From an uncultured Acidimicrobiaceae bacterium (lineage in GTDB: Bacteria; Actinomycetota; Acidimicrobiia; Spongiisociales; UBA5794): a stretch of DNA of 64,000 nucleotides. Position numbers and translations under genes: made by a program. How positions within the stretch are numbered: position 1 is the stretch's first letter; the number at the start of each line of letters is the position of its first letter. Positions 31,095 to 48,698 of this stretch are shown one piece after another. Below the pieces are notes generated by a model. That model was given only the letters and a program-made list of their open reading frames with translations, was not told the origin of the DNA and ran no database searches. The DNA lies in NCBI GenBank assembly GCA_947259365.1, contig CAMYMC010000015.1, positions 62,001 through 126,000 of the forward strand. The letters are read 5' to 3'.

Positions 31095-33212
31095 GTGACC
31101 AGCGCAGAAGCGCAGAGACCACGCCGGCGGACGATCGCGGCAACCGTCCTCGCGCTCTGCGCCGCGCTCACCGTTGCCACCCCCACCGCCGGCGCCAACA
31201 CCGCCCAGGACGGCGCGACGCCCACGTTCACCGAGTCCTCGGGATGCGGGTACCCGTCGACCTCCAAGCCGCAGGCGTCCCGAAAGGGGTGGCTGCCCGA
31301 TTCCGAGCCCGTCCGGGGGCCGGCGGGCGACTTCTTCGGCAGGACGATCGGCTCGATCCGCAGCCAGCTCGTCTGGTGGGATGTCCCGATGAGCAACGGG
31401 GAGCGGATCAAGGTCCACCAGCGAGCGCTGCCCGCATTCGAGCTCGTTGCCGCGAACCTCGCCTCCGAAGAGGCGGCAGGCCGCTACTACGGCGTCCGCT
31501 CCATCGACACCTACGGATTCGCCGCCCGGACGATCTCGAATCGCTACAGCCTGTCGTACCACGCCCTGGGCACCGCGGTGGACATCAACGCCCGCAACAA
31601 CCCGCTGCGCAGGGACAACGTGCTCATCACGAACATGCCCCAGTGGTTCGTCGACGCTTGGGTCGACGCCGGCTTCTGCTGGGGCGGGTACTGGAACGAC
31701 TCGAAGGACACGATGCATTTCGCCTGGATGGGCCCGGAGCGGACGCCCGGCTACGGCGCCATCCCGCCGGACCAGCCGGTCAGCTCCGCGCCTGCGGGGT
31801 TCACCTTCGAGGTGCAGAACACGTCGACGCCGTTCGGCGACCCCGGCCCCGGTTCCCGGTACGCGATCGCCGAGGCGAGCGGCGACGGAGCCGTCGACGT
31901 CGTCCAGGTCACCCAGAACCCGTGGGGGGCGATCGTCGACTACTCGCGGGCCGGCGACCGCCACGCCTGGTGCAGCGTGCGCCGGGATCATGCCGCCGGC
32001 GCCAGCCTCGCCGGCAAGACGGTGCTCTTCGGCGACCACCACCGCACCGGGAGGAACGACCTCTGGCTCGTCGGGGACGAAGGGGGACTCGTCACAGCGA
32101 CGATCTACTCGAAAGCGGACGACTTCTCCACGAGCGTCTCGTACGTGACCGACCTCGCCGCCGCCCCCGGGGACGTCTACCTCGTCGGAGACCACAACGG
32201 CGACCGGATCGCCGACCTGTTCGTCGTCCGTACCGGACCGGCGACATCACTCGACGTGCGCCTCGGCCCCGACTTTGCCTCCGGGCCGGCGACGTCGGCC
32301 ACCGGGCTCGGCGAAACAACGCCCCACGGGTGGGGCTTCACGCTCGCCGATCGCGACCTCGACGGCGTGTCCGACCTCCATGCCCTCGAACACGGCGACT
32401 CGGCCCGGCTCCACATCCTGCTCGCCGCCTCGGGGTACTCGGCAGTCGCCGAGAGCCACGACGTCGGCGACCTGGGTCCGCTCGCCGCAATGGGCTTCGC
32501 TGATTTCGACGGCGAGGGGCGCCCCGACCTCCAGGTCCTCGATGCCGGCGGCACGATGAGAGCCTTCCTCGGGAACCAGCCGGTGTACGCAGACCTCGAC
32601 GGCTGGTTCGTCGCCCCCAGCTGGTCTTGCTCGTCCGACGCCGAGCCGTACGGTCACGACGGGACGTTCCGCGACGACGACGGCAACGTGCACGAGGCGG
32701 ACATCGAGGCGATCGCCGCTCGTGGCATCACGATGGGATGCAACCCGCCGTACGGCGACGAGTATTGCCCGGACCGCGCGGTGACCCGCGGCGAGATGGC
32801 GGCGTTCGTCATCCGCCTCCTCGGCAGACCCGGCGAGGGCGCCACCGATCACTTCATCGACGACGCCGAGTCGATCTTCCAGGGCGACATCAACAGGCTG
32901 GCGTCGGCCGGGATCGCCAGAGGCTGCAACCCGCCCGACAACGACCGCTACTGCCCCGACCGGGTCATGACCCGGTCGGAACTCGCCGCGATGCTCGTGC
33001 GGGCGCTCGGGCTCACCGAAGCCGGGGATGGCGATCGATTCGTCGACGACGACGGGTCCGTGTTCGAACAGGACATCGAGAGGCTGGCCTTTGCGGGTGT
33101 CACCCGGGGCTGCAACCCGCCGCTCAACGACCGGTTCTGCCCCTCGGCATCGGTCATGCGCGACGAGATGGCGTCCTTCCTCGAGCGGGCGGCCGGCCTC
33201 CTCGACGGGTGA
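31095..33212 (+). CDS. secreted M15 peptidase-like protein with VCBS-type region and three Cys-type SLH-like repeats
   Basis: A 705-residue exported protein. GTG 31095 is preceded by AAAGGA at 8 bases and gives a standard signal peptide (RRRTIAATVLALCAALTVATPTAGA). In-frame ATGs at 31011/31014 next to the promoter would give a longer Arg-rich leader and remain possible. The N-terminal domain matches M15-type D-Ala-D-Ala carboxypeptidases, with zinc ligands in YHALGTAVDIN and the DTMHFAW motif. A middle region has FG-GAP/VCBS-like elements (DHNGDRIADLFVV, DRDLDGVSDLHAL, DFDGEGRPDLQVL), probably a beta-propeller. Three repeats close the protein (about 32658-33209) with GCNPPYGDEYCP, GCNPPDNDRYCP and GCNPPLNDRFCP. 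Wall anchoring and peptide trimming are inferred. Confidence 0.85.
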   Translation: MTSAEAQRPRRRTIAATVLALCAALTVATPTAGANTAQDGATPTFTESSGCGYPSTSKPQASRKGWLPDSEPVRGPAGDFFGRTIGSIRSQLVWWDVPMSNGERIKVHQRALPAFELVAANLASEEAAGRYYGVRSIDTYGFAARTISNRYSLSYHALGTAVDINARNNPLRRDNVLITNMPQWFVDAWVDAGFCWGGYWNDSKDTMHFAWMGPERTPGYGAIPPDQPVSSAPAGFTFEVQNTSTPFGDPGPGSRYAIAEASGDGAVDVVQVTQNPWGAIVDYSRAGDRHAWCSVRRDHAAGASLAGKTVLFGDHHRTGRNDLWLVGDEGGLVTATIYSKADDFSTSVSYVTDLAAAPGDVYLVGDHNGDRIADLFVVRTGPATSLDVRLGPDFASGPATSATGLGETTPHGWGFTLADRDLDGVSDLHALEHGDSARLHILLAASGYSAVAESHDVGDLGPLAAMGFADFDGEGRPDLQVLDAGGTMRAFLGNQPVYADLDGWFVAPSWSCSSDAEPYGHDGTFRDDDGNVHEADIEAIAARGITMGCNPPYGDEYCPDRAVTRGEMAAFVIRLLGRPGEGATDHFIDDAESIFQGDINRLASAGIARGCNPPDNDRYCPDRVMTRSELAAMLVRALGLTEAGDGDRFVDDDGSVFEQDIERLAFAGVTRGCNPPLNDRFCPSASVMRDEMASFLERAAGLLDG

Positions 33213-44862: not shown

Positions 44863-45279
44863 TTAGGGCACGAGCCGGTCGTAGGCCTCGACCTCGGCCG
44901 CGAAACCGTCGAGATCTGCCGCCGTCGGCGCGTGCTCCCACACCGACACCTCGGCGAGGATGTCCGCGTATCGCTCCGCCTGGCCTTCACGCACCACGGC
45001 GCGGATCGGCACGTCCTCGGGCATGATCTCCCGATACCGGCGCAGGATGGCCCGATGCTGGGGGCGGTCGAGGTCGAGCTCGAAGATCACGCCGTGAGCC
45101 TCGTCCACCTTGTCGCAAGCCCGGCCCAAAGAAGCCCTGGCGAGGATCGGGCACAGCTCGGCGTGCGGCGGGCCGTGGCAGACGAGGACAGGATGGCCGA
45201 GGCCCTCGAGGAAGTCGGTCTCGAACGAGACGCTGTCCTGGGCGGAAACGTCGATGAGGATGGCCCCGCGAAGATCCAT
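44863..45279 (-). CDS. uncharacterised Cys/His-containing protein divergent from arsM
   Basis: A 138-residue soluble protein with AAGGAGG ideally placed before the ATG at 45277-45279. I do not recognise the family. The N-terminus (MDLRGAILIDVSAQDSVSFETDFLEGLGHPVLVCHG) looks like a Rossmann-type alpha/beta start. Potential metal or arsenic ligands cluster in one third of the chain: C34, H35, H39, C43, C55 and H62. The C-terminal third is acidic (AERYADILAEVSVWEHAPTAADLDGF). It is divergent from arsM, and the palindromic operator lies between them. A role in arsenic handling is only an inference. Confidence 0.65.
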   Translation of the reverse strand: MDLRGAILIDVSAQDSVSFETDFLEGLGHPVLVCHGPPHAELCPILARASLGRACDKVDEAHGVIFELDLDRPQHRAILRRYREIMPEDVPIRAVVREGQAERYADILAEVSVWEHAPTAADLDGFAAEVEAYDRLVP

Positions 45280-45357
45280 CCGGCCTCCTTTCCCATAGCC
45301 ACTGTGATGCGAGGCGTCCCGACATGTGTAGAGGCCAAAGCCTCATTCCCTGGCGGC

Positions 45358-45387
45358 TTGACTCATATCGAAAGCTGTCGATATACT
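45358..45387 (+). promoter_or_regulatory. sigma-70-type promoter of arsM with an inverted repeat inside
   Basis: TTGACT (45358-45363), an 18-base spacer and TATACT (45382-45387), the clearest housekeeping promoter seen in the window. An inverted repeat ATATCGA (45365-45371) and TCGATAT (45378-45384) lies across the spacer and -10, so a bound repressor would block polymerase. Confidence 0.7.
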
Positions 45388-45417
45388 CATCGTATCGATG
45401 TACATCGATACGATGAG
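45386..45417. promoter_or_regulatory. perfect 32-bp palindrome at the arsM transcription start (operator)
   Basis: The half CTCATCGTATCGATGT (45386-45401) is followed by its exact reverse complement (45402-45417). It contains ATCGA/TCGAT half-sites like those in the spacer repeat at 45365-45384. Overlap with the predicted start point fits an ArsR/SmtB-type repressor. No arsR gene is in the window. Confidence 0.6.
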
Positions 45418-45441
45418 CGTGCCGGACACCGGAGCAGCGAC

Positions 45442-46176
45442 ATGAGCGACAAGGCCACGAAACGAGCGGTGCGGGAGCGTTATGCCTCCGCAGCGCTGTC
45501 CATCATCGACACCGACGCGACGAGCTGCTGCGGCCCGGTCGAGACCGGGCCCGGGTTCGGAACCGACGTCTACGACGCGCTCGCCGACGAGAAGCTCCCG
45601 GACACGGCCACGATGGCGTCGCTCGGTTGCGGCAACCCGACCGCCGTCGCCCGGCTTCGCGAGGGTGAGACGGTGCTCGACCTCGGCTCCGGAGGTGGAC
45701 TCGATGTCTTCCTCTCGGCGCGCCGCGTGGGGCCCGCCGGGAAGGTCTACGGCATCGACATGACCGACGAGATGCTCGAGCTCGCCCGCCGTAACCAGGC
45801 GAAGGCCGGCATCGAGAACGTCGAGTTCCTCAAGGGCGACATCGAGGACATCCCGCTCGGCGACGGTGAGGTGGACGTCATCATCTCCAACTGCGTCATC
45901 AACCTGTCGACCGACAAGCCCCGGGTGTTCGAGGAGGCCCACCGGGTCCTCAGGCCCGGCGGCCGTTTCGCCGTCACCGACGTCGTCACGACCCGCCCCT
46001 TCTCCGAGGACGAGAAGGCGGACATGGCGAGCTGGACCGGCTGCATCGCCGGGGCGCTGACCCGCGACGAGTACATCGACGGACTGGCGACGGCCGGGTT
46101 CGGGGACCTCGAAGTCGAGGTGACCCACGAGCTCGGTCCCGACGTCGTGAGCGCCATCATTCGCGCCACGGCCTGA
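45442..46176 (+). CDS. arsM: arsenite S-adenosylmethionine methyltransferase
   Basis: A 244-residue enzyme that methylates As(III) to less retained or volatile species. The SAM fold has [40 protein letters not shown] and [38 protein letters not shown]. The arsenic-binding cysteines are visible: C29/C30 (SCCGP), C63 (LGCGNPTA), C151 (SNCVINL) and C201 (WTGCIAGAL). The 50-residue C151-C201 spacing matches known ArsM proteins. ATG 45442 follows GGAG. Strong promoter and palindromic operator elements precede it, consistent with arsenic-inducible expression. Confidence 0.93.
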
Positions 46177-46265: not shown

Positions 46266-48698
46266 GTGAAACGCCTCAGCGTTGTTCTCGCCACGTTCGC
46301 CATGCTCGCCGGCGCATCACCCGCCACGGCACAGGTCGTCGAGCCGTCTCCGCCCTGTATCGACCTCTGCCCGATCGTTCGCCACGACTCCCCCGTCATC
46401 GTCGAGCGCTACACCGTCGACGTGTCGATCGAGACCCAAGTCGCCACAACACACATCACCCAGGTGCTGCGCAACGGAGGCGGCGGGATCGCCGAGGGCT
46501 TCGTCTACCTGCCGACACCTCCCGGCGCGGCCGTCACCGACCTCGCGTTGTGGATCGACAACGAGCCGGTCTCCGGCGAGCTCCTCACCGCTGAGAAGGC
46601 CGAGGAGATCTACCGCGACATCGTCACGAGCCTCCGTGATCCGGCGCTGCTGCAATGGATCGACGGCGGCCTCGTCCAGCTCTCGGTGTTCCCGATCCCT
46701 CCCGGCGGCACACGGACGGTGGAGATCGAGTACGTCGAGATCCTCACCGCCGAGTCGGGGCTCGTCCGCCTTGCCCATCCTCTCGGCTCGGAGCTGAGCC
46801 GCGCCGTGCCGATCGAGCACCTGGCGATGACCGTGCGCGCCTCGACGACCTCGCCGCTGCGCGCCGTCTACTCGGCCACCCACGACATCGACATCGACCG
46901 GAAGGGCGACCGCCGGTTCGTCGCCAGCTTCGAGGAGCGTGACGCCGACCCGGACACCGACTTCGTCCTCTACTACTCGACATCCGGAGAGGGTGTCGGA
47001 GTCGACGTCCTCTCCTTCCGCGACCGGGGCGAGGACGGCTACTTCCTCCTCCTCGTCGCCCCCGGCCTCGACGCCGATGCGGAAACGGTGGCAAAGGACG
47101 TCGTCATCGTTCTCGATCGCTCCGGCTCGATGGAGGGCGAGAAGTTCGCCCAGGCGCTCGAGGCCGCCCGGTTCGTCCTCGACAACCTCGGTGAGGACGA
47201 CCGGTTCAACGTCGTCACGTTCTCGAGCAGCCTCCGCAGCTACGCCCGGAGCCTCCGTCCTGCCGTAGAGGCCGACGACGCCGCCGAATGGCTCGATACC
47301 CAGGCGGCGAGCGGGTCGACCGACATCAACCGCGCCCTCCTCGAGGCCGTCGAGCTGGCGGACGACGAGCGGCCGGCGTACGTCATCTTCCTCACCGACG
47401 GTCTCCCCACCGAAGGGGTCCAGGACCCGGACCGGATCATCGACAACGTCCTCGACTCCGCTCCCGACAACATGTCGGTCTTCGCCTTCGGCGTCGGCTT
47501 CGACGTCGACACCGTCCTCCTCGACTCGCTCGCAGAGAACCACCACGGCACGACGAGCTACGTCGTGCCGGGCGAGCGAATCGATGAGGTCGTCTCCGGC
47601 TTCTACGCCAAGGTGAAGACCCCGGTGCTCACCGGCGTCGAGATCGAGATCGACGGCGTCACCGTCCGCGACCTCCATCCCCGCGAGCCGGGCGACCTCT
47701 TCTCCGGGGAACAGCTGGCCGTCGTCGGCCGCTACGACGAAGGTGGTCCCGCCGAGATCACTCTGCGCGGGCTCGTCAACGGGGAGCCGGCGACGTTCAC
47801 CTACGACGACGTGCGCTTCCGGACGTCCGGCGGCGCGGAATTCCTTCCGAGGCTGTGGGCAACCCGCAAGGTCGGCTCTCTCCTCAAGGACATCAGGCTC
47901 AACGGGGCCAACGAGGAGATCATCGCCGAGATCATCGAGATCGCGAGCCGGTTCGGCATCGTGACGCCGTACACGTCCTTCCTCGTCACCGAGCCGCGGC
48001 CGCTGACCATCGACGATGTGCAGCGGATGGCGACCGAGCAGGCGGCAGCCGGCGCGTTCGACTACGGCCGATCCGGAGAAGATGCCGTGACCTTCTCGTC
48101 GGCCGCCGAGGCGCTCACCTCGGCCCAGGCGCCGTCGGAGATCAGCGCCGAGTCGCGCAACGCCGTGCGGGTGACCGGAAGCCGGGCATTCGTCCTCGTC
48201 GATGGACTGTGGACGGACACCGCGTTCGACGAGTCCGCGATGGAGATCCGTCGTGTGCCGTACCTGTCGGACGCGTACTTCGCCCTCGCGACCGGCAGAG
48301 CGGATGTCGCCGAGGCGCTCGCGATCGCCGAGCGCGTTCTCGTCGTCGTCGACGGCGCCGGATACGAGATCGTCGCCGAGGACGAAGCGGCCGGGCCCGT
48401 CACGTTGCCACCGCCACGACCGGAGGATCCCACCGTCACCCCGCCGGTGACCGCGACGCCGACGACGATCGCGATCACACCGGACGGGACGACGCCCCCG
48501 CCGACGACGATCGGGGCCGCCCCGGCAACCGGCGACGGGGCCGGCACGGGGCTGGTGCCGTGGCTGCTCGTCGCCCTCGTCGCCCTCGGAGGCGCCGGCG
48601 CCCTCGCCGCTGTCTGGGCGGCCACCGCCCGACCGCAGCCAGGGACCGAGGACGCCGCGAAGCCGGCCGAGCGGGAACGGGCGCGCCAGCGGGGCTAA
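46266..48698 (+). CDS. VIT and VWA domain surface protein with C-terminal membrane helix
   Basis: An 810-residue exported protein starting at GTG 46266, preceded by AAAGGA. A signal peptide ([21 protein letters not shown]) leads to a VIT domain (about 40-210; [71 protein letters not shown]). A VWA domain (about 270-450) has an intact MIDAS start DRSGSM, then [12 protein letters not shown] and [11 protein letters not shown]. After a long C-terminal region and a Thr/Pro linker, a helix ([21 protein letters not shown]) anchors it. Such proteins resemble inter-alpha-trypsin-inhibitor heavy chains and are thought to act in adhesion. It follows arsM but probably has its own control. Confidence 0.88.

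Follow-up and report, generated by a model that had tools for sequence, protein, structure and literature searches.

A predicted tandem ArsR operator at an arsM promoter and its probable unlinked repressor in an uncultured actinobacterium

Introduction

In the stretch of DNA analysed here (64,000 nucleotides, hereafter called the window), the gene of an arsenite methyltransferase, arsM, is preceded by a long palindrome and by a second inverted repeat. The initial annotation took both for a double operator of a dimeric repressor of the ArsR/SmtB type and, as no such regulator gene was seen in the window, placed the repressor elsewhere. The question raised by this locus is therefore what the two repeats are and which protein would read them. 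The best explanation, to which a probability of roughly 0.87 is assigned from sequence comparison, is a tandem operator recognized by an ArsR homodimer that senses As(III), most likely the ArsR encoded on another contig of the genome (C8) and acting in trans.

Results

Two copies of one motif overlap the arsM promoter

The segment 45386-45417 (CTCATCGTATCGATGTACATCGATACGATGAG) equals its own reverse complement and is thus a 32-bp palindrome without mismatch, as first reported. No other gapless palindrome in the window is as long; the second-longest perfect one has 24 bp and is located at 32956-32979 (CCGACCGGGTCATGACCCGGTCGG). With an order-1 Markov model of the window, palindromes of at least 32 bp are expected 2e-4 times per window and 0.01 times per genome, and one out of 60 simulated windows reached a 32-bp palindrome. 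The second repeat, made of ATATCGA (45365-45371) and TCGATAT (45378-45384), was also found where it had been placed. Both inverted repeats were recognized as copies of a single 18-bp motif, TATCGA-N6-TCGATA, here designated as the predicted operators O1 and O2 (Table 1), with a centre-to-centre distance of 27 bp.

Only one sigma-70-like promoter was found within positions 45200-45500, namely TTGACT-18-TATACT, which matches at 10 of 12 positions (0.1 such pairs expected in shuffled sequence). Its spacer is filled by O1, which also overlaps the -10 element, and its expected start point is covered by O2, in line with the initial annotation. An inverted repeat overlapping the -35, the -10 or the start point of the target promoter is what is expected of an ArsR/SmtB operator, and this arrangement is present at arsM.

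Table 1. Features of the arsM locus (positions in the window) and of the candidate repressor gene on contig C8
Feature	Position	Strand	Description
arsM promoter	45358..45387	+	-35 TTGACT 45358-45363, 18-bp spacer, -10 TATACT 45382-45387
Distal operator O1 (predicted)	45366..45383	strandless	TATCGAAAGCTGTCGATA, TATCGA-N6-TCGATA; PWM score 26.0
Proximal operator O2 (predicted)	45393..45410	strandless	TATCGATGTACATCGATA; PWM score 29.2
32-bp palindrome	45386..45417	strandless	O2, plus 3 bp per side matching the family consensus (TCG/CGA), plus 4 bp per side (CTCA/TGAG)
arsM, arsenite S-adenosylmethionine methyltransferase	45442..46176	+	244 aa; NCBIfam PRK11873
Divergent neighbour ORF	44863..45279	-	138 aa; no Pfam/NCBIfam hit
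arsR	contig C8, 177202-177552	+	116 aa; best-scoring ArsR gene in the genome

The product of arsM reached 309.5 bits against PRK11873 (cut-off 263). Its best PDB matches are arsenic methyltransferases, and its cysteines in GCG, SNCV and TGC/GEC align with those of algal ArsM. Directly 3' of arsM (46266-48698), a protein with a VIT plus a VWA domain is encoded, which resembles sortase-target inter-alpha-trypsin-like proteins and scores below the cut-off of that family.

The start of the ORF on the opposite strand lies about 85 bp from O1, and with such a divergent layout the operators could serve both genes as a bidirectional regulatory region. This is considered very unlikely, as no minus-strand promoter-like site was found within 45200-45500 and as the homologues of the ORF, present in about a third of the order's relatives (46 of 137), are not beside arsM: they are located on other contigs or, in one genome (G122), 49 kb away. 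Since the ORF is unlinked to arsM in relatives, its regulation by the operators is unsupported. From its distribution, it is probably an unrelated neighbour outside the circuit, which seems to have come next to arsM through rearrangement.

The conserved operator is shorter than the palindrome

Conservation of the flanks was measured on a set of relatives' sites that deviate from the motif at no more than one position (96 distinct sites). It runs three bases past the core (in order A/G, C/T and A/T) and yields an extended 24-bp family consensus, TCRTATCGAYnnnnRTCGATAYGA, while offsets 4-7 displayed no excess symmetry in these sites. O2 is a perfect match to this consensus, which corresponds to the inner 24 bp of the palindrome. 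No conservation in the family was seen for the outer CTCA/TGAG pairs, which are specific to this genome; the longest perfect dyad among the sites of relatives is 24 bp. The proposal of a double operator holds in that two copies of the motif are present; the functional unit, however, would be an operator of 18-24 bp occurring twice, and not the 32-bp palindrome itself.

The outer four pairs may be accidental or may strengthen the site locally. A more specific scenario is that arsR left arsM in one sub-lineage, which kept the double operator and extended its proximal site to the 32-bp palindrome, the higher affinity or an extra dimer register compensating for distant control in trans; this is regarded as doubtful. 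It is also conceivable, and highly improbable, that the palindrome represents an independent element (a cruciform, an RNA hairpin, or a recombination or plasmid/phage site) whose overlap with the promoter is accidental. Its perfection over 32 bp, a length reached by no other operator copy observed (24 bp at most), would fit such an element, as would the outer four pairs that the family consensus leaves unexplained. The inner 24 bp nevertheless fit the operator consensus of the family, no second copy of the palindrome was found in the genome within 3 mismatches, and no exact copy was present among viral contigs. On the last two observations a viral or repeated element was rejected. For the 5' leader of arsM, an RNA hairpin or a riboswitch was likewise rejected: RNA beginning at the predicted start point showed no more stable folding than shuffled sequences (z -0.16), and no Rfam match was obtained.

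A candidate repressor gene on contig C8

The genome has nine HTH_5 hits, all of them on contigs other than that of the window (C15), in agreement with the reported lack of an ArsR gene there. The motif was searched throughout the 3.34-Mb genome, the ranking being based on a pattern search allowing up to 2 mismatches. Exact TATCGA-N6-TCGATA occurs in two copies only, both before arsM, and 30 sites were obtained with up to 2 mismatches versus 6 for the reversed control. These 30 sites were ranked using a PWM built from the sites of relatives; as the latter were seed-selected, the ranking is circular for the core, but not for the flanks and gene contexts. The highest score was obtained by the site before arsR on C8 (29.6), followed by the two arsM sites (29.2 and 26.0). 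The next site, with 15.7, sits within a response-regulator reading frame. C36:32332, inside a response-regulator frame, and C6:853, downstream of both flanking genes, were rejected as regulon members. Only two strong target promoters were found in this genome, those of arsM and of the C8 arsR. No earlier description of the motif was found in the open-access literature, to which the search was confined, subscription papers being outside its scope.

A search for ArsR genes preceded by the same palindrome had been proposed in the initial annotation. Outside the arsM promoter, the motif is indeed best matched directly before an ArsR gene, by a one-mismatch copy (TATCGACATATGTCAATA, C8:177183-177200) which ends 1 bp before the ATG. 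The operator before the repressor's own gene that autoregulation calls for is hence present. The C8 protein scored 63.3 bits against PF01022 (HTH_5, cut-off 22) and 91.6 bits against NF033788 (metalloregulator ArsR/SmtB family, cut-off 55); with 84 bits against NF041413 (Rv2640c-type ArsR, cut-off 155), it stays below the cut-off of that profile. Its gene stands alone, with one gene ending upstream, which we take by eye from the sequence to encode an AAA-type ATPase, and a convergent neighbour, presumably encoding an ABC-F-type protein. On the tree, C8 ArsR groups with the motif-associated ArsRs and apart from six other ArsRs of the same genome (support 0.93). The recognition helix LSQPTVSHHLKVL is common to C8 ArsR and the motif-associated ArsRs. 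Cys11, 12, 54 and 56 are conserved in 65, 64, 70 and 68 of 70 relatives, respectively, a set which matches exactly neither that of R773 (Cys32/34/37) nor that of the Corynebacterium glutamicum protein CgArsR (Cys15/16/55). C8 ArsR likely senses arsenite, the exact As(III) ligand set being uncertain.

The operators could be real and yet be read by another ArsR/SmtB-type or other dimeric repressor, possibly one missing from the assembly, that senses another metal or methylated arsenic. Nine HTH_5 hits in an incomplete genome leave room for it, and MAs(III)-responsive ArsRs have been described (PMC11868830). This reading is judged unlikely, since no motif site at up to 2 mismatches was found at the other ArsR loci examined (L002-L008) and since the other ArsRs of the genome on the tree fall outside the motif-associated clade. 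With an assembly of 50 contigs that is 94% complete, it is possible that a second matching ArsR lies in a gap. Control of a linked Acr3 pump was rejected, as no Acr3 above threshold was found in the genome.

At another ArsR locus (L005, C46:91346), an ArsR-type HTH is fused to an arsenate-reductase-like (LMW phosphatase) domain (frame 1453-2118). A different inverted repeat, CTCAATAGATATTGAGTCAATAG, is located upstream of this fusion, which suggests a second, separate arsenic switch.

Motif, arsR and arsM occur together in relatives

A search of 138 genomes of the order yielded 39 sites with the exact motif, distributed over 31 genomes, versus 1 hit for the control. ArsR and/or ArsM of these families were encoded within the fetched stretch at 22 of the 29 exact-motif loci fetched from relatives. 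Among 28 scorable arsM loci of relatives, a divergent arsR was accompanied by two motif copies between the genes in 13 cases and by one copy in a single case. Most relatives with an adjacent arsR display a divergent arsR-arsM pair sharing the two operators. At locus L033, where both genes are on one strand with arsR first, the two motif copies are found before arsR. Among the ArsR homologues of relatives (L082-L110), 25 of 29 also have a site upstream. Alignment of the intergenic regions revealed TATTGAC...TCGATA over the -35 element, followed by TATCGA...TCGATA immediately ahead of the ribosome-binding site.

In a broader set, the association was also observed in records of Mycobacterium, Mycolicibacillus, Nocardioides and Chloroflexi/Dehalococcoidia, and was lacking at most arsM loci of Acidobacteria. 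Unlike the latter, the Acidobacteria-labelled record QEUP01000014.1 (L121) harbours a double operator of the actinobacterial type (1375-1416) along with the arsM most similar to that of the window; its label may be wrong or the locus may have been transferred.

The most similar arsM genes (72-74% identity) were found in G053, G054 and QEUP01000014. No arsR stands beside arsM in any of them, and one or two sites are still located before arsM. The ArsR homologue of G053 and of G054 lies apart from arsM, at a distance of 126 kb or on another contig, and carries its own, weaker site. As the relatives closest in arsM have no adjacent arsR and yet keep the sites, the separation of arsR from arsM with retention of the operators seems to characterize this sub-lineage. 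The O1-O2 distance ranges from 29 to 39 bp among relatives in the order and from 16 to 43 bp overall. The 27 bp observed here are below the range of the order, and one close arsM relative has 24. Given this variation, a need for strict helical phasing of O1 and O2 is unlikely.

Discussion

Motif identity, promoter placement, genomic rarity, co-occurrence with the ArsR clade and arsM, clade membership and cysteine conservation are the observations on which the proposal of a tandem ArsR operator is built. Comparative genomics ties this ArsR clade, the motif and arsM together and so argues for the double operator initially proposed, and the probable partner gene on C8, unlinked to arsM, is consistent with a repressor acting from elsewhere. 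For DNA binding, dimer occupancy, the arsenite response and the direction of regulation, the model draws on established ArsR/SmtB biology. Without arsenite, one ArsR dimer would sit on O1 (spacer and -10) and another on O2 (start point), and both together would exclude RNA polymerase from the arsM promoter. Upon binding of arsenite to its cysteines, ArsR would leave the DNA and arsM would be turned on. As the C8 gene carries the same operator immediately before its start codon, ArsR would also repress itself. The divergent arsR-arsM pair seen in relatives would have been separated in this genome; since arsR is unlinked and the operators were kept at arsM, the repressor would have to act in trans.

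This is an ordinary arsenic switch of a well-known kind, to which the separation of regulator and target with a retained double operator adds modest interest. The analysis delivers a precise predicted operator (TATCGA-N6-TCGATA, with its 24-bp extension) and a named probable repressor for arsenic methylation in a lineage of poorly cultured actinobacteria, and with this motif ArsR targets can be predicted in relatives. If arsM is indeed controlled by an unlinked arsR, a missing adjacent arsR does not imply unregulated methylation.

The best PDB match of C8 ArsR is CgArsR (PDB 6j0e), which has a type 3 As(III) site. The N-terminal CC of CgArsR (Cys15/16), known to provide As(III) ligands (PMC11868830), aligns with Cys11/12 of C8 ArsR, whereas Cys55 lies in a 2-residue insertion and does not align exactly with Cys54. 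The C-x-C-D-L motif of C8 ArsR (Cys54/Cys56) is like that of R773 ArsR, minus the third cysteine of the latter. In Thermus thermophilus HB27, dispersed arsenic genes are served by a single ArsR/SmtB repressor, TtSmtB, which also binds its own promoter and whose operator overlaps with promoter elements (PMC5658604). The present case resembles it in the dispersed targets, the promoter-overlapping operator and the site at the repressor's own promoter, and differs in operator sequence and in the targets, which in the case of TtSmtB comprise an efflux gene and arsC instead of arsM. An arsM-containing operon, arsRMC, is repressed by ArsR of Arsenicibacter rosenii, which is released by As(III) and MAs(III) (PMC11868830). 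There, however, arsR belongs to the operon, the cysteine site is another one, and the footprinted site is unlike TATCGA-N6-TCGATA. Finally, ArsR of Agrobacterium tumefaciens 5A acts on genes beyond its own ars operon (PMC7965956); its regulon motifs are broad and degenerate, whereas the motif described here marks just two strong target promoters.
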